33,682 bases of DNA. It comes from a virus. Of the stretch, positions 785-33,682 are shown in pieces. A program made the translations under genes and the position numbers. The first letter of the stretch is position 1. Each line of letters begins with the position of its first letter. The stretch covers positions 1 through 33,682 of the IMG/VR virus record IMGVR_UViG_3300001533_000912. One strand, 5' to 3'. The notes under the pieces are model-generated. The model worked only from the letters and a program-made list of their open reading frames with translations, ran no database searches and was not told the origin of the DNA.

Positions 785-946
785 TTATTTTAAAAATGAA
801 TTGCCTGACTCAAGCCCCTTCGCATAAACCTGCTTAGTAGGTTTTGCTTCCTGCCAACCACAAGCCCGAAGGCGTTTGATTTCTGCCTTGTCGCTGGTGG
901 TTATCTTTGTACCCGAACCGCTGATGAATGTTTTTGAAGTTGCCAT
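785..946 (-). CDS. small hypothetical protein (53 aa), first gene of leftward operon
   Basis: The start is placed at the ATG giving MATSKTFISGSGTKI, because a Bacteroidota-type promoter (971-1005) sits just upstream. A longer reading would begin inside that promoter. The protein is basic, with a CGWQEAKPTKQ segment in the middle, and has no recognised domain. Two bases separate it from the next ORF. It would be the first gene transcribed in the short operon that ends with the YqaJ-type nuclease. Confidence 0.6.
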   Translation of the reverse strand: MATSKTFISGSGTKITTSDKAEIKRLRACGWQEAKPTKQVYAKGLESGNSFLK

Positions 947-970
947 AATGTGATTGTTTAATTGAATACT

Positions 971-1005
971 CAAAGGTATATCTTTTCTCAATACGCCCGA
1001 CAAAA
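971..1005 (-). promoter_or_regulatory. Bacteroidota-type promoter for the small-protein/YqaJ operon
   Basis: Read on the minus strand, TTTTG (1005-1001) is followed after 22 bases by TACCTTTG (978-971), an exact match to the TAnnTTTG -7 box of Bacteroidota sigma-A promoters. The spacer is at the long end of the known range. Transcription would begin about 20 bases before the ATG at 946. The site lies in the gap after the helicase gene, so the operon can be transcribed independently of the upstream replication genes. Confidence 0.6.
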
Positions 1006-1065
1006 GAATCTAATCTTTTTTGTAACTCATTGATATTGAGGGAGAAAAATTTTCACAAAAAATAC

Positions 1066-2550
1066 TCAAAACGGTATTTCATTGTCTTTTTCGGGTTCAA
1101 TTATATCCGCATAGTCCTTAAATCGCTCGCTTGGTGCGAATTTAGGGCGGGTTTCGTTTATATCTGGATGATTCGATTCATCCACGAACTTGTAACAAGT
1201 AGGCACATAGTTCACCCGAACATCATCCAATCCACCGTGTCTGTGCTTTGCCATAAGCAAATATGCTTTATCTCGTGTCGATTCGCCTCGCTCATCTTCA
1301 AATTCATTGTAAAACTCAGGGCGGTGAACAAATATTACAACCGATGCATCTTGCTCAAGTTGCCCAGATTGTCTAAGGTCAGATAAACTCGGTCGTTTGT
1401 TCGCACGTTGCTCATTGGCTCGGCTCAACTGCGATACTGCAAACACAGGTATCTTTAAATCTTTTGCCAGCGTTGTTAACCCTCTGCTTATCTCATCAAT
1501 TACCTGCGTTGGTTGCATACGCCCATCATTGAGAGGCGGTGATATTATTTGCAAGTAATCGACAAACACAGCATCTAATCCATTTTCGTGCATTATTTTT
1601 CGGGTCTTGGTTCGGATTTCACTTATAGTCAAATTACTGCTGTCATCAATTATCAGGTTTGATTTTGATATTTTGCCTACGAGTTCGTGAATCTGACTAA
1701 ATTGAACCCTGTCAATCATGCCTTGCTCAACCAAGGTCGCAGGGATGCCCGTTATTTCAGATATCATTCTGCCCATCAATCGCTCACGAGTCATTTCAAG
1801 ACTAAATACCAGCACCCGTTTATTTTCACTCATTGCCATGTGCCGTGCGATGTTCATCATGAGAATAGTCTTACCCATCGCAGGTCTGCCAGCGATTAGA
1901 ATTAGATCCGCTGGTCTGAATCCTTTGGTAATAAAATCCAAAGTTGGAAAGCCTGATGTCAGACCGATAATTGATTTCGGTTGTGCCATCTTTTGCTCAA
2001 GACTTTTTAGAAAATCCGCACTTTGGTTGGCAATCGGTACGATGTCCTGCTTTGCATTTTGCCTTGCAACTTTAAATACCAAATCCTCGGTTTGCGATAA
2101 CAGCGTAAACGGGTCTGTGCTGTCCTCGGTCGATTTCTTTACCAGCCAGCCACCCAACTGCATCATTGACCGCAGTATGTACTTCTCGGCTACAAATCGA
2201 CAATGGAATGATATATTCGCACCACTTGAAACGCCCGAAGTCAAATGCATCAAATAAGATACAATTTCACTCGATGTCATATTTGCGATTCCTGCGCTTC
2301 TCACGACACTATTTACAGAAACGAGGTCAACGGGTTCATTTCGTGCGTAAAGTTCCACCATCGCCTTAAAAACCGCCATATTGCGCCCGTCATAGAACAT
2401 TTGCGGAGTAAGAATGTCAACTGCCTGAATTAATGCCTCTGTTTCGAGTAGGCAAGCACCAAGTACGGCTGATTCCGCTTCGAGGTCTTTCGGTATGTTG
2501 AATTGCAAGGCGGGCACTTGTTCGCCTCGCTTGCCGTTAAGTAGTTCCAT
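1066..2550 (-). CDS. dnaB: replicative DNA helicase, DnaB family
   Basis: A 494-residue protein of normal DnaB length. Residues ~20-130 resemble the DnaB N-terminal helical domain (LEAESAVLGACLLE). The RecA-like motor follows with Walker A GRPAMGKT (221-228), an LEMTRERLMGRM segment (251-262), Walker B VFVDYLQII (328-336, Asp331), and SQLSRANEQR...RPSLSDLRQSGQLEQDA near 373-402, where the family has its polymerase-site and arginine-finger motifs. It is expected to unwind DNA 5'-3' as a hexamer at the phage fork. I chose the ATG at 2550 over an upstream start because it follows the organizer stop by seven bases and begins the conserved region promptly. The partner gene upstream is the replisome organizer. 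Confidence 0.95.
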   Translation of the reverse strand: MELLNGKRGEQVPALQFNIPKDLEAESAVLGACLLETEALIQAVDILTPQMFYDGRNMAVFKAMVELYARNEPVDLVSVNSVVRSAGIANMTSSEIVSYLMHLTSGVSSGANISFHCRFVAEKYILRSMMQLGGWLVKKSTEDSTDPFTLLSQTEDLVFKVARQNAKQDIVPIANQSADFLKSLEQKMAQPKSIIGLTSGFPTLDFITKGFRPADLILIAGRPAMGKTILMMNIARHMAMSENKRVLVFSLEMTRERLMGRMISEITGIPATLVEQGMIDRVQFSQIHELVGKISKSNLIIDDSSNLTISEIRTKTRKIMHENGLDAVFVDYLQIISPPLNDGRMQPTQVIDEISRGLTTLAKDLKIPVFAVSQLSRANEQRANKRPSLSDLRQSGQLEQDASVVIFVHRPEFYNEFEDERGESTRDKAYLLMAKHRHGGLDDVRVNYVPTCYKFVDESNHPDINETRPKFAPSERFKDYADIIEPEKDNEIPF

Positions 2551-2557
2551 TTTGTTC

Positions 2558-3367
2558 TTAGTTAAATAATGGGGCTTGCAATTTTGCCTTTGCGTTTTCT
2601 CGTTCTCGCATCTCTCTACCCCAATACTCACGCCAATTCAATCCCTCTTTCTGCATCTCAAGTTTGACTTTGTCGAATACCCATGAACACATAACAGCAT
2701 AGTCCTTGGTATAATGCTGAGCACCATCAGGCTTTAACTCCTTGTATGCAGAAAGGCTTTCAGTCGCACGCTTTAATACAAATGTTCCAACCTTTTCAAT
2801 TGCATCCTCTACATTTTTCTCACTAAGAAAAACATTGCCAAATTCACCGTAACATTTAAAGCCCTTCGAAATCATCATCCTGCCGTATTCATCATCGGTC
2901 ATTTTAGGCTTTATTCGCTTTGATTTTTTTTCAATTTTTTCGCCTATACTACTACTATTACTATTACTTATACTCTGACTATTACTATTACTATTACTAT
3001 TACTAAGACTATTACTATGACTATGAGCCTTTGGCAAGGCTTTGGCAAGGCTTTCCAAAGGCTTTGGTAAGGCTTTACCTGGTTCGTATGTTTCAGTATC
3101 AATGCCCTCATTTTCAAGTAGTTTAATAATAGAAGACTGAAACCGACCATCATGAGCCAATCCATTAGGACACTGAGTTCGAATTACACGCTTTATCAAA
3201 AACCTGCCATTTCCAAGTGCGGTAAATTCAGATTGAATTTCAAAAAATGCCTTCTCAAGGTCAATCTGCAAGTCATACTCAATCCTGCGTTTTATAAGGT
3301 CGGAGTTCATAAACTTTAGTTGTATGAAATTCTTCATTGCCTCAAGTTCAAGTTCCTCTTTACTCAT
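2558..3367 (-). CDS. phage replisome organizer / helicase-loader-like replication protein
   Basis: A 269-residue protein with three parts. Residues ~1-95 form a helical/winged-helix-sized N-terminal domain. Residues ~97-145 are a low-complexity linker (KALPKPLESLAKALPK, then alternating Ser-Asn). Residues ~150-269 form a C-terminal domain. The C-terminal KCYGEFGNVFLSEKN...YAVMCSW resembles the GEFxNVxLTxEE...YxxIxxW module seen in phage replisome organizers and DnaC-like proteins. It lies directly upstream of DnaB, as such proteins usually do, and would load the helicase at the origin. The DNA under the linker holds 11-bp iterons and an AT-rich repeat, reminiscent of the origin inside lambda gene O. 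The start is the ATG at 3367; a TTG two codons upstream is possible but unneeded. Confidence 0.75.
   Translation of the reverse strand: MSKEELELEAMKNFIQLKFMNSDLIKRRIEYDLQIDLEKAFFEIQSEFTALGNGRFLIKRVIRTQCPNGLAHDGRFQSSIIKLLENEGIDTETYEPGKALPKPLESLAKALPKAHSHSNSLSNSNSNSNSQSISNSNSSSIGEKIEKKSKRIKPKMTDDEYGRMMISKGFKCYGEFGNVFLSEKNVEDAIEKVGTFVLKRATESLSAYKELKPDGAQHYTKDYAVMCSWVFDKVKLEMQKEGLNWREYWGREMRERENAKAKLQAPLFN
2943..3025. repeat. AT-rich tandem hexanucleotide tract (TATTAC-type), possible DNA-unwinding region
   Basis: About 80 bases built mainly of TATTAC-like 6-mers with a few variants (TATACT, TGACTA). In the gene it encodes the Ser-Asn linker. A T-rich stretch (2921-2940) borders it on one side and the 11-bp iterons on the other. 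Confidence 0.7.
3029..3083. repeat. 11-bp iterons, candidate replication origin
   Basis: Four contiguous 11-bp units with no gaps: CTTTGGCAAGG (3029-3039), CTTTGGCAAGG (3040-3050), CTTTCCAAAGG (3051-3061) and CTTTGGTAAGG (3062-3072), then a degenerate fifth (3073-3083). Eleven is not a multiple of three, so the period is a property of the DNA and not of the encoded peptide. It is close to one helical turn, which would place binding sites on one face of the helix. Confidence 0.6.
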
Positions 3368-3383
3368 AAGCAATCCATAGTTA

Positions 3384-3467
3384 TCCCCAGAACAGGCAGT
3401 CAGAGTTGCCTATCCAAAGGGGTTCGGTTTCCTGTTAAGGAAATTCTTTTATATCCGCTCTGACCCA
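3384..3467 (-). promoter_or_regulatory. duplicated structured leader element, copy B (upstream of replisome organizer)
   Basis: Read on the minus strand, GGGTCAGAGCG (3466-3456) opens the element and GCAACTCTGACTGCCTGT (3409-3392) closes it. GTCAGAG and CTCTGAC can pair over seven bases. The 3' copy of that strand also lies in the 8-base loop of a second possible stem, AGGCA/TGCCT, so a pseudoknot or a switch between two folds is possible. A small internal hairpin (TTTCC/GGAAA) lies between them. The element ends about 17 bases before the organizer ATG. Copy A at 3913-3993 shares both conserved ends. Confidence 0.6.
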
Positions 3468-3511
3468 GATATCCAGCGTTGCTGGTGATGCAAAGATAAC
3501 AATATTATCCA

Positions 3512-3892
3512 TTACAAATTATCAATACTTGGGAACGGAACAAGAGAATCAAAATGAGATGTTTGAAATTCACACTGCTTTGGGATTGGAAGATTTTCAT
3601 AATCTCCGGTATCAAACGCATTCCCTTTGTGCTCAACAGATGGTGGGTGTATAAAGCATTCCTTCTTCTTACAGAATAAAATATCAACCTGCCTCTCAAT
3701 TTCGCCTTCAGTAAAATTATACCCTTCACAAATATATGTGCTTTCCTTTGTTAAGTGAACGCAATCATGGCAAGCCCTATGGTTTTCAGGATTTTTCTTA
3801 CATGATTTTTCGTGCTTTACGCAAAAGTGTTTTTGACGATACCATTTCTTGCAATGGTCGCAACTATAAATTTCTTGTGTAACGGTTTTCAT
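3512..3892 (-). CDS. phage zinc-finger protein (126 aa)
   Basis: The N-terminal half is rich in metal-binding residues: C11-x2-C14, H22, C24, H27, C31, then C41-x2-C44 and H46, with the linking sequence KSCKKNPENHRACHDC. I know this pattern (paired Cys with an intervening H-x-C-x2-H and 'NPENHR-C') from small phage proteins annotated only as zinc-finger or hypothetical. A structural zinc site is likely; DNA or protein binding is inferred. Two further cysteines occur at ~55 and ~74, and the C-terminal half is low in recognisable features. It lies between the resolvase and organizer genes, with a copy of the same leader element before it and after it. The ATG at 3892 follows AGAGGT at a short distance. 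Confidence 0.75.
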   Translation of the reverse strand: MKTVTQEIYSCDHCKKWYRQKHFCVKHEKSCKKNPENHRACHDCVHLTKESTYICEGYNFTEGEIERQVDILFCKKKECFIHPPSVEHKGNAFDTGDYENLPIPKQCEFQTSHFDSLVPFPSIDNL

Positions 3893-3912
3893 AACATACC
3901 TCTAAATAAAAA

Positions 3913-3993
3913 ACCCCAATACAGGCAGTCAGAGTTGCTTATACCGAGGTTTATGCCTTTGGGAAGTTAAATCGTGAATGCGCTCTGACCCGC
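3913..3993 (-). promoter_or_regulatory. duplicated structured leader element, copy A (upstream of zinc-finger gene)
   Basis: It has the same two ends as copy B. On the minus strand GGGTCAGAGCG (3991-3981) and GCAACTCTGACTGCCTGT (3938-3921) are identical to those of copy B, while the 42-base middle of B is replaced by an unrelated ~42-base middle here. GTCAGAG/CTCTGAC pairing is kept. CCCAA in the middle can pair with TTGGG near the 3' end, again overlapping the first stem. The 3' end runs into a T-rich stretch (GGGGTTTTTTATTT) about 15 bases before the ATG, so a terminator/antiterminator reading is possible. Confidence 0.6.
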
Positions 3994-3995
3994 AT

Positions 3996-4015
3996 TTTGA
4001 ACTACAAAGTTCAAA
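3996..4015 (-). terminator. short hairpin after the resolvase stop codon
   Basis: TTTGAAC (3996-4002) and GTTCAAA (4009-4015) form a 7-bp stem with a 6-base loop, five bases beyond the resolvase stop. There is no T-run on its 3' side in the minus direction, so termination is uncertain. It may instead be part of the leader of the next gene or protect the mRNA end. Confidence 0.3.
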
Positions 4016-4019
4016 AAAA

Positions 4020-4391
4020 TTATTCAGTTCCCAAAATTATTTTGCCTTCATCGCCCCAAACTTTTGACATCCGAATCCAATGCACGCCCGAATCGTCCGT
4101 TCCAAAACAATCCATAAAACCTTTCACAAGGTTGTCTAAATCAGGCTTTTGTGTGTGCGGTTTGCCTCGTAACAAGTCCTTTTTTCGGTCGGTATAAGAC
4201 ACAGGAAACGGCAAAACGAACTTGATAAAGAATGCAGAAGGGCACTTATGAATCCCGACCTGCTTCAAGAGTAGTCGCAGTTCTGTCTTGTAATCCCGAT
4301 AGCGATGATATCGCTTGTCTGCGAACTTACCAGCCTGAGTAGTACGAACCGCACCCATCGGATTGATGATGATTTTATACTGATTTTTCAT
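4020..4391 (-). CDS. rusA: RusA-like Holliday-junction resolvase
   Basis: A 123-residue protein, the usual RusA length. It begins MKNQYKIIINPMGAVRTTQ, like other RusA proteins that open with a beta-strand and a P-x-x-x-R segment. It has the diagnostic KPDLDNLVK (82-90) with two acidic residues (D84, D86) and K90, then D99/D100 and a KVWGDEGKI segment where the family has Kx(W)..I. These match the acidic catalytic triad and lysine of RusA, which cuts four-way junctions symmetrically with Mg2+. The ATG at 4391 was preferred to a longer frame that would run into the terminase gene. It is the first gene of the leftward replication block and divergent from the small terminase. Confidence 0.9.
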   Translation of the reverse strand: MKNQYKIIINPMGAVRTTQAGKFADKRYHRYRDYKTELRLLLKQVGIHKCPSAFFIKFVLPFPVSYTDRKKDLLRGKPHTQKPDLDNLVKGFMDCFGTDDSGVHWIRMSKVWGDEGKIILGTE

Positions 4392-4419
4392 GATGCGATA
4401 AAGGTATAGTTTTTTTTCG

Positions 4420-4427
4420 TAAATTTG
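4420..4427 (+). promoter_or_regulatory. -7 box TAAATTTG directly before small terminase
   Basis: TAAATTTG fits TAnnTTTG and is preceded by TTTCG, as at 7748 and 24137. Only four bases separate it from the ATG at 4432, so the transcript would begin at or next to the start codon (leaderless). No convincing -33 TTTG is present. On the opposite strand TACCTTTA (4406-4399), seven bases from the resolvase ATG, may serve the leftward operon. Confidence 0.45.
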
Positions 4428-4431
4428 AGGC

Positions 4432-4923
4432 ATGGCAAAACGATTGAAGCGACCCATGGATTACAACCCCGAATTAGGGGATAGGATATGTGAATTAATC
4501 GCTGAATCAGAAATTGGAATTAAAAAAATCATTGCTGAAAACGACTGGATGCCAAGTGTTGCAACACTGTTTATGTGGATTCGCATTTACGATGATTTTG
4601 AAAAACAGTACGCGCGCGCGAAAGAAATGCAAGCCGAAACACTGGCAGAGCAAATACTTGAAATATCTGACGACTCCAGCGGTGATAACCTAATAACAGA
4701 AGGTGGCGTAATTGAAAACAGGGAATTTGTAAACCGATCGAGGCTTCGTGTTGATTCCCGTAAATGGCTTGCCTCAAAATTACTTCCCAAAAAATACGGC
4801 GACCGCACAGCAATTGAGCATAGTGGTGAACTTCGCACCCCTGAACCGCCTCCAATTATATTTAATATCAGCCCCGAAGTTGCCAAAGAGGTAATGGAGG
4901 CACGGGATGCAGAGCCAAAGTAA
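4432..4923 (+). CDS. terS: terminase small subunit
   Basis: A 163-residue protein. The N-terminal half reads like a helix-turn-helix recruiting domain (ELIAESEIGIKKIIAEN...PSVATLFMWI), followed by a helical segment (FEKQYARAKEMQAETLAEQI). The SRLRVDSRKWLASKLLPKKYGDR stretch, at residues ~101-123, is the common signature of phage small terminases. It should bind the packaging site and stimulate the large subunit. Its 3' end overlaps the large-subunit ORF by 17 bases, which fits coupled translation. It opens the rightward virion block. Confidence 0.9.
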   Translation: MAKRLKRPMDYNPELGDRICELIAESEIGIKKIIAENDWMPSVATLFMWIRIYDDFEKQYARAKEMQAETLAEQILEISDDSSGDNLITEGGVIENREFVNRSRLRVDSRKWLASKLLPKKYGDRTAIEHSGELRTPEPPPIIFNISPEVAKEVMEARDAEPK

Positions 4924-29627: not shown

Positions 29628-29896
29628 ACCTCCGCTTCGCTGTTATTGGGGATGTACCTGAGCGTATGGGATGAACTGAACTTGATGCCGTCATCATCTA
29701 TCCTAACCCGCATCTCATGTATCTTCGCACCCTTGCGAGGCAAATATGGTATAGGTTCAATCTGATTTCCATGTGTCGCTACCATTCGGTATAATAGGGT
29801 CTTGAGGTGCTTCGCCTCTTCTTGGATTGCCTCGTAATCCATTATGAGCGCATGGAGATCTTTACGGAGTTTGGTGGCGTTATTCTGATTTGCCAT
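29624..29896 (-). CDS. small coiled-coil protein (90 aa)
   Basis: The start at 29896 was chosen because the sequence around it (ACCT-ATG-GCAAATCAGAATAAC) is the same as at the start of the gene at 30188; ATGs at 29941 and 29953 are possible. It begins MANQNNATKLRKDLHALIMD and forms a helical region to ~45, then a charged beta part (EMRVRIDDDGIKFSSSHTLR). Its 5' end is embedded in a leftover of the neighbouring gene family (see finding on the duplicated junction). The function is unknown. Confidence 0.6.
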   Translation of the reverse strand: MANQNNATKLRKDLHALIMDYEAIQEEAKHLKTLLYRMVATHGNQIEPIPYLPRKGAKIHEMRVRIDDDGIKFSSSHTLRYIPNNSEAEV

Positions 29897-29910
29897 AGGT
29901 TTTGTTGTAA
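29873..29910 (-). repeat. duplicated gene-junction sequence, copy 1
   Basis: 38 bases that match 30165-30202 at 36 positions. It includes the end of an ancestral frame (..YNKTYGKSE-stop) and the start MANQNN of the next gene. Confidence 0.75.
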
Positions 29911-29930: not shown

Positions 29931-30188
29931 TTATTCTCCATGCTTACATCCATTCAAAAAAATATCCACGAACTCCGAGGCTTCACGGTCGTCATGTCCC
30001 AGAATATTGTGGGATTCAGCCGTGTAATCCATCAGCGACTGGACGAGGTTGGTAAGTTGCTCCCGATACATATCACGGGCTTCTCCGATAATTCCGAACC
30101 ACTCTTCATCAGGTATGGTGTCAGGTGGAAATTTCGGTAGTTTGCTGATTAGCCAATCTACTGCGGTGGTGTTATTCTGATTTGCCAT
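29931..30188 (-). CDS. small early protein, paralogue of the fragmented gene upstream (85 aa)
   Basis: Starts MANQNNTTAVDWLISKLPKF and continues with a helical, acidic body (EARDMYREQLTNLVQSLMDY) to NGCKHGE-stop. The TAVDWL start and the REQ...SLMDY helix resemble a family of short proteins common in Bacteroidota phages, whose members usually end in YYNET-like tails. The same frame continues past the stop with QDQTEESYNKTYGKSE and another stop, which is that tail. So a nonsense mutation seems to have shortened the protein. The function of the family is unknown. Confidence 0.6.
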   Translation of the reverse strand: MANQNNTTAVDWLISKLPKFPPDTIPDEEWFGIIGEARDMYREQLTNLVQSLMDYTAESHNILGHDDREASEFVDIFLNGCKHGE

Positions 30189-30202
30189 AGGTTTCGTTGT
30201 AA
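30165..30202 (-). repeat. duplicated gene-junction sequence, copy 2
   Basis: Partner of 29873-29910. Here it spans the end of the fragmentary gene (..YYNETYGKSE-stop) and the start MANQNN of the gene at 30188. A further 21-base identity (30151-30171 and 30331-30351) extends the paralogy into the coding part. Confidence 0.75.
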
Positions 30203-33290: not shown

Positions 33291-33682
33291 GATATTACTT
33301 CTGTTACAGTGAATTTCCCGTCATTAAACTCCCCTTTATATGGAGTATTTGGCTTAATTCCGTTTTCGCCAACGTATTCTATGTGCTTGCGGTAGCGATT
33401 GCCATCCCAGTATTTCCAGCACAATAAAGCCCCATGCCCTCCGGTAATGGTTGCACTATGCCCTCCGGTAACGGTTGCCCCAAACCCTCCGGTAATGGTT
33501 GCACTATGCCCTCCGGTAATGGTTGCATAATCCCCTCCGGTAATGGTTGCCTCATCACCTCCGGTAATGGTTGCATAATCCCCTCCAGTAACGATTGCCA
33601 TATGCCCTCCGGTAATGGTTGCATAATCCCCTCCGGTAATGGTTGCCATATGCCCTCCGGTAATGGTTGCCCTATCCCCTCC
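33287..33682 (-). CDS. octapeptide-repeat protein, beta-solenoid-like, 5'-incomplete
   Basis: The frame is open to the right edge, giving 131 residues. Ten full units of eight residues follow the pattern A-T-I-T-G-G-x-x, where x-x is HM, DY, DE, HS, FG or HG. The C-terminus is a non-repeat domain (ALLCWKYWDGNRYRKHIEYV and GENGIKPNTPYKG), which resembles the end domain of other phage proteins with the same repeats. An internal ATG in the repeats gives a 120-residue reading but is not a likely start. Regular TxTGG repeats suggest a flat beta-helix. The function is unknown. Coupled by ATGA to the next gene. Confidence 0.75.
   Translation of the reverse strand, partial: GGDRATITGGHMATITGGDYATITGGHMAIVTGGDYATITGGDEATITGGDYATITGGHSATITGGFGATVTGGHSATITGGHGALLCWKYWDGNRYRKHIEYVGENGIKPNTPYKGEFNDGKFTVTEVIS
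33431..33682 (-). repeat. 24-bp tandem repeats coding for ATITGGxx
   Basis: 252 bases of 24-base units (GGTTGCxxxxxCCCTCCGGTAAT on the plus strand), ten and a half copies within the window and continuing beyond it. Most variation falls in the two variable codons. A few units differ at the third base (ACGGTT for ATGGTT). Confidence 0.9.

Follow-up and report, generated by a model that had tools for sequence, protein, structure and literature searches.

The window, which is the whole stretch of 33,682 nucleotides analyzed here from the IMG/VR virus record IMGVR_UViG_3300001533_000912, contains two copies of a short leader element among replication genes. On the minus strand, the order is RusA, copy B, the Cys/His-rich gene, copy A, the replisome-organizer-like gene, and DnaB. 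The initial annotation had placed two copies of an inverted-repeat leader here, and both were found on the minus strand, running from 3472 to 3377 before the organizer ORF and from 3997 to 3906 before the Cys/His-rich ORF. The coordinates of the genes, hairpins, and putative promoter boxes are given in Table 1. On the 3' side of copy A, at 3360-3384 (-), the short frame AUG GAU UGC UUA UGA overlaps the start AUG of the organizer gene (AUGA), and translational coupling of the organizer gene to this 4-codon leader frame is possible.

Table 1. Leader copies, their parts, and neighboring genes in window coordinates
Feature	Position	Strand	Sequence or description	Basis or remark
Replisome-organizer-like gene	2558..3373	(-)	behind copy A	PHROG 13246, E=7e-4, weak
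Cys/His-rich (zinc-finger-like) gene	3512..3892	(-)	behind copy B	without Pfam or PHROG match
RusA resolvase gene	4020..4457	(-)	upstream of copy B	L008 has the same neighbor, 85% identical
Copy A (winA)	3377..3472	(-)	leader of the replisome-organizer gene	CM R1 87.8 bits; R1 training included copy A
Copy A HP1	3451..3472	(-)	AUAUCUG [GGUCAGAG] CGGAUAU; loop 3458-3465	MFE
Copy A central small hairpin in linker	3428..3443	(-)	UUUCC..GGAAA	MFE
Copy A HP2	3385..3422	(-)	CCCCUUUGGAUAGGCA [ACUCUGAC] UGCCUGUUCUGGGG; loop 3399-3406; without U-run after it	MFE; terminator score -56
Copy A putative promoter -7 box	3491..3498	(-)	TATCTTTG	consensus TAnnTTTG (PMC7366714)
Copy B (winB)	3906..3997	(-)	leader of the Cys/His-rich ORF	CM R1 107.3 bits; R1 training included copy B
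Copy B HP1	3977..3996	(-)	AAUGCG [GGUCAGAG] CGCAUU; loop 3983-3990	kissing-hairpin scan and fold
Copy B HP2	3911..3952	(-)	AAACCUCGGUAUAAGCA [ACUCUGAC] UGCCUGUAUUGGGGUUU; loop 3928-3935	kissing-hairpin scan and fold
Copy B U6 run after HP2, intrinsic-terminator-like	3908..3913	(-)		sequence; terminator score +9.3 (14-bp stem, U6 tail)
Copy B putative -7 box	4005..4012	(-)	GAACTTTG, one mismatch to TAnnTTTG	counterpart in L003 and L008 is TAACTTTG

Each copy is built from a 5' hairpin, HP1, with the loop G+GUCAGAG, and a 3' hairpin, HP2, with the loop A+CUCUGAC. The two loops are complementary over 7 nt and, therefore, a 7-bp kissing helix is possible with both stems standing. This helix takes seven of the eight nucleotides of each loop and leaves one unpaired. 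The initial annotation had described identical ends around differing middles. The ends, GGGTCAGAGCG and GCAACTCTGACTGCCTGT, are the same in both copies and the middles (46 nt in copy A and 42 nt in copy B) do differ, but the middles are not free to vary since they carry compensatory stem arms. They hold the second arm of HP1, a linker of 24-30 nt with a weak central hairpin (predicted in four of the five members described below), and the first arm of HP2, while the conserved ends correspond mostly to the two loops. The HP1 stems of the two copies differ at 5 of 12 nucleotides, yet they are 100% paired.

GTCAGAG occurs five times in the window, compared to 1.5 expected, and four of these occurrences lie within the two elements. 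When the whole window was scanned for kissing hairpins, exactly the two copies ranked at the top, with scores of 56 and 50.5. A score of 50.5 was reached once each in 2 of 400 dinucleotide shuffles, a test that takes no account of the identity between the copies or of relatives. A chance origin is untenable because of the identical loops in both copies and the existence of relatives.

A lack of further copies in relatives had been named beforehand as a refuting result, and such copies were found in L003, L008, and L065/L032. L003 and L008 were found in IMG/VR using a pattern that contained both loops. L032 was reached through a terminase profile search, and a kissing scan blind to loop sequence revealed the same architecture there with the loops GGUAGCAG and ACUGCUAC. 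The only additions from an HP2 pattern without loop sequence were L059/L065, whose element is that of L032; the L032 and L065 contigs are near-identical. The analysis was thus conducted with five members (winA, winB, L003, L008, and L065), which by divergence form three types: winA, winB/L003/L008, and L065. CM R1 recovered the five training sequences and the L032 duplicate, with no further convincing member among the loci examined, and it did not detect the element in the helicase relatives L034/L035 (63% identical). No additional element came from protein searches in which the organizer, zinc-finger, and RusA proteins served as queries, and BLAST against phages and plasmids gave no true member. 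The remaining matches to the loop pattern in viral and genome collections, judged by eye, had no stems and seem to be fortuitous matches within coding regions. A Fibrella plasmid BLAST match, which partly overlaps an annotated ORF, was not taken as a member.

The genes behind the elements vary. A small ORF and a primosomal-type gene (weak PHROG match) follow the L008 element, a helicase-primase operon follows the L003 element, and a small ORF and the same operon follow the L065 element. A zinc-finger gene directly behind the element was not found in L003, L008, or L065.

Next, the folding of the element was analyzed. HP1 and HP2 were both present in the MFE structure of all five members, and at the level of secondary structure their loops were 95-100% unpaired. 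The loop-loop duplex was calculated at about -9 kcal/mol. The ends had been noted as able to pair with each other; in the folds, they do not close one long stem, and each end sits in the loop of its own hairpin. A long-range GTCAGAG..CTCTGAC stem around the middle was rejected as the main fold, being 6-15 kcal/mol worse. The pseudoknot or two-state switch that had been suggested thus takes a more precise form, a loop-loop (kissing) pseudoknot with both hairpins intact.

When the five sequences were aligned and the pairs of HP1, HP2, and the kissing helix were marked, 98.5% of cells paired, compared to only 30-40% for control structures slid by 1-3 columns. Both partners differ in nine pairs, of which four are among the 6 of HP1, three among the 7 of the kissing helix, and two among the 14 of HP2, and 0 of 500 column shuffles reach this level. 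The kissing-helix changes come from L065, where the loops GUAGCAG/CUGCUAC contain three changes, all compensated. The covariation of this helix, in which three of seven pairs vary, depends on that one divergent type (L065=L032) among the three types formed by the five members. As judged from the alignment, the HP1 stem, the HP2 stem, and the loop complementarity were shown to be kept by compensatory changes, and the two-hairpin structure is well supported. Uncompensated changes in paired bases were the other refuting result named beforehand, and the changes observed are compensated. The relatives and these compensated changes, including the three in the loop-loop helix, also support the proposal in the initial annotation that this is a functional RNA element.

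The strand of this RNA can be read from the stems. HP2 holds U-G/G-U pairs that are formable only in minus-strand RNA, with U61-G80 present in all five members, and stems on the complementary strand are much shorter. In DNA, GTCAGAG/CTCTGAC is an inverted repeat, and the element could act at that level as two palindromes to which a repressor or a replication protein binds, or as an insertion unit. It is module-like: in the window it is found close to replication genes, and in other contigs the genes behind it are different. However, the spacing is unequal between copy A and copy B (62 and 66 bp), the loops change while their complementarity is kept, the wobble pairs maintain the stem on one RNA strand only, and the U-run and promoter follow the same strand. 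We, therefore, regard a DNA-level element as very improbable.

Another possible explanation for the conserved loops is control in trans. Between copies A and B, 0 of 16 loop nucleotides differ, compared to 11 of 40 in the stems and 15 of 27 in the linkers (Fisher p=0.023, uncorrected), although this test is blind to relatedness and is one of ten pairwise comparisons. The pattern is suggestive of a partner common to both copies, possibly each other. A terminated copy B transcript of ~90 nt could kiss the copy A leader, so that one leader would report on or repress the other. L065 indicates that the loops are able to change in a compensatory manner, and recognition in trans would call for identical loops within one genome. 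However, intramolecular pairing should win by proximity, the L008, L003, L032, and L065 contigs have one copy each in their sequenced part, and common ancestry of A and B is a simpler account of the shared loops. Trans control is, thus, doubtful. It is quite unlikely that the elements are a family of leaders switched by kissing alone, without a metabolite pocket. The interchangeable loop pairs would then serve as an address, common within a phage and different between phages, by which leaders would recognize one another, or a shared RNA, in trans and time the replication operons. Complementary hairpin loops that kiss and control replication genes occur in ColE1 RNAI/RNAII and similar plasmid antisense controls. 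These are trans/antisense pairs from opposite strands, whereas the phage element holds both loops in one RNA.

Putative promoters were found upstream of the hairpins. A -7 box of the TAnnTTTG type lies 18 nt before HP1 in copy A and 8 nt before HP1 in copy B, L003, and L008; the box is exact in all of these except copy B, which has one mismatch. TAnnTTTG is the -7 box consensus of the Bacteroidota primary sigma factor (PMC7366714). From the -7 boxes only, we infer a host in the phylum Bacteroidota, the phylum assumed in the initial annotation. The -33 element is weak and the promoters are predictions. L065 has the same promoter box as L003, but tRNA-Met lies between the box and the complete element, giving the order promoter-tRNA-element-ORFs. 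These near-identical phages (L003:120-260 and L065:3990-4260) share the promoter and the first bases CACAATGCGGG, which are followed by the element in the former and by tRNA-Met and a different element in the latter. The switch-over looks like recombination at a GCGGG microhomology.

At the other end of the element, HP2 finishes in GGGG-U6 in copy B, L003, L008, and L065, resembling an intrinsic terminator, and in each of these an open reading frame begins shortly afterwards. With a d'Aubenton-Carafa-type formula taken from general knowledge, the terminator scores were +9, +22, +26, and +24, respectively, and -56 for copy A. Copy B was not listed by a simple terminator scan of the window. In L003, the distance from the U-run to the helicase ATG is about 14 nt and the upstream operon appears to be divergent, judged against the homologous L065 region. 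Therefore, the helicase mRNA appears to have to pass through the element. A stand-alone sRNA gene was disfavored as the sole role since the L003 helicase has no room for a promoter of its own.

These data bear on the possibility that HP2 is an ordinary terminator ending RusA or tRNA transcription, or that HP1/HP2 protect a 5' end, with kissing merely stabilizing the RNA. The L065 element lies directly 3' of a tRNA gene and would supply the tRNA 3' end, and the promoters set HP1 near the 5' end in copy B, L003, and L008. A second, covarying hairpin with a complementary loop would be superfluous in a plain terminator, though, and L003 has no space for another promoter between the U-run and the start codon. 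Also, copy A is not a terminator by its score. We consider this explanation unlikely.

A promoter, a kissing two-hairpin RNA, a terminator, and a start codon in series give the layout of an attenuator. We favor, with moderate confidence, an interpretation in which the leader controls replication operons by transcription attenuation and loop-loop kissing biases the formation of the terminator. Because HP2 has the form of a transcription stop signal in most relatives, the leader is probably an on/off switch for viral replication genes that has not been described before. In the proposed mechanism, HP1 of the ~90-nt 5' leader would fold first, followed by the linker with its weak central hairpin and then by HP2. 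RNA polymerase would halt after HP2 unless the HP1 loop captured the nascent HP2 loop, and kissing would delay or block closing of the lower terminator stem. The level of read-through would be set by a factor or condition that favors or disfavors kissing. Kissing need not oppose termination, because a linker of 24-30 nt geometrically allows a complete HP2; with the opposite sign, kissing could stabilize the terminator. Attenuation cannot be the function of copy A as written because the U-run is missing there, even though both loops are kept. The same kissing structure may instead influence the initiation of translation or the stability of the RNA in copy A; alternatively, this copy may be a relic.

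The closest architecture was found in the guanidine-IV riboswitch, in which a 5' hairpin is joined through a loop-loop pseudoknot to a 3' hairpin that forms the terminator (PMC11611296, PMC7736828, PMC9788692). In that riboswitch, the growing terminator stem shortens the linker, so that its completion and kissing are in competition (PMC11611296, PMC9788692). Guanidine-IV (GGAM-1) and its Gd4v variant resemble the phage element in having two hairpins, kissing loops, a 3' hairpin in terminator form, a length of ~90 nt, and a position in the 5' leader. The terminator character of the 3' hairpin is shared by four of the five members as judged by terminator score, copy A being the exception. By this analogy, kissing could tune read-through in the phage leaders, and attenuation by kissing is moderately supported as a mechanism. 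In contrast to guanidine-IV, the kissing-helix sequence of the phage element can change, a conserved pocket is not visible in the loops of the five members, and the genes behind the elements are phage replication genes or unassigned, whereas guanidine-IV binds guanidine and acts on genes for exporters or guanidine metabolism. We, therefore, did not file the element under guanidine-IV, which it resembles in architecture but not in having a conserved pocket. The env8 cobalamin riboswitch offers another case in which the loop of an expression-platform hairpin kisses an upstream RNA loop (L5-L13; PMC10907184). Unlike the phage element, which has nothing similar, env8 has a large ligand-binding aptamer and acts by translational control.

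The leaders were also compared to the put RNAs of phage HK022, which measure ~70 nt, form two stem-loops, and are present twice in each phage, in early leaders (PMC9378689). Put adopts a V-shaped fold with a triple helix and contacts the zinc-binding domain of the polymerase (beta') (PMC9378689). The window elements are alike in place, size, and copy number, being ~75-90 nt with two hairpins and two copies ahead of replication genes ("early" is inferred from gene content). An element of this kind would bind the transcribing polymerase and cause anti-pausing or antitermination at downstream early-operon terminators, which would also suit copy A without its U-run. However, put as described has neither loop-loop kissing nor a U-run right after the second stem, and the elements have no Rfam match. 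Put-like antitermination is, thus, improbable, and the element was set apart from put on the basis of the published description.

Searching Rfam with the winA, winB, L003, and L065 elements at gathering and permissive thresholds returned only chance matches and the L065 tRNA, although the presence of guanidine-IV in the Rfam set used is not certain. This agrees with the earlier impression that the leader fits no known riboswitch family. A phage leader of the kissing-hairpin type was not found in the part of the literature that was covered. Our verdict is a new RNA family that is a variant on a known regulator type.

In a phage lineage that has received little study, the element would contribute a structured-RNA family backed by compensatory changes. 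It would also be a natural example of an upstream hairpin holding the loop of a terminator hairpin, without an apparent ligand pocket. With three loop/stem types known, a role of kissing in the control of termination lends itself to direct testing, and the small size of the element suits synthetic use.

Other conserved or repeated sequences were observed in these phages. A region of ~110 nt is conserved in the window (944-1066 (-)), L008 (2815-2937), L065 (22-136 and 3856-3968), L003 (1-100), L035 (3799-3915), and L034 (2812-2928). This promoter/operator region contains TGTCGGGCGTATT, followed by a TACCTTTG-type -7 box and AACAATCACATNATG, and a regulator common to these phages probably binds there. 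A conserved TAAATTTG box lies 4 nt short of the small terminase ATG (window 4420-4431; L003 4442-4453; L034 7378-7389; L065 8585-8596), so close that the mRNA may be nearly leaderless. L003 (4330-4370) and L065 (8473-8513) have tandem GTAGTAACTTTGT repeats ahead of their terminase genes, and every repeat includes a TAnnTTTG box. In the window, two 38-nt repeats that are 95% identical (29873-29910 and 30165-30202) lie near two ORF starts (both TTKPMANQNN). At 33381-33668, eight copies of a 24-bp tandem repeat in the contig-end ORF encode octapeptide repeats of the ATITGG type.
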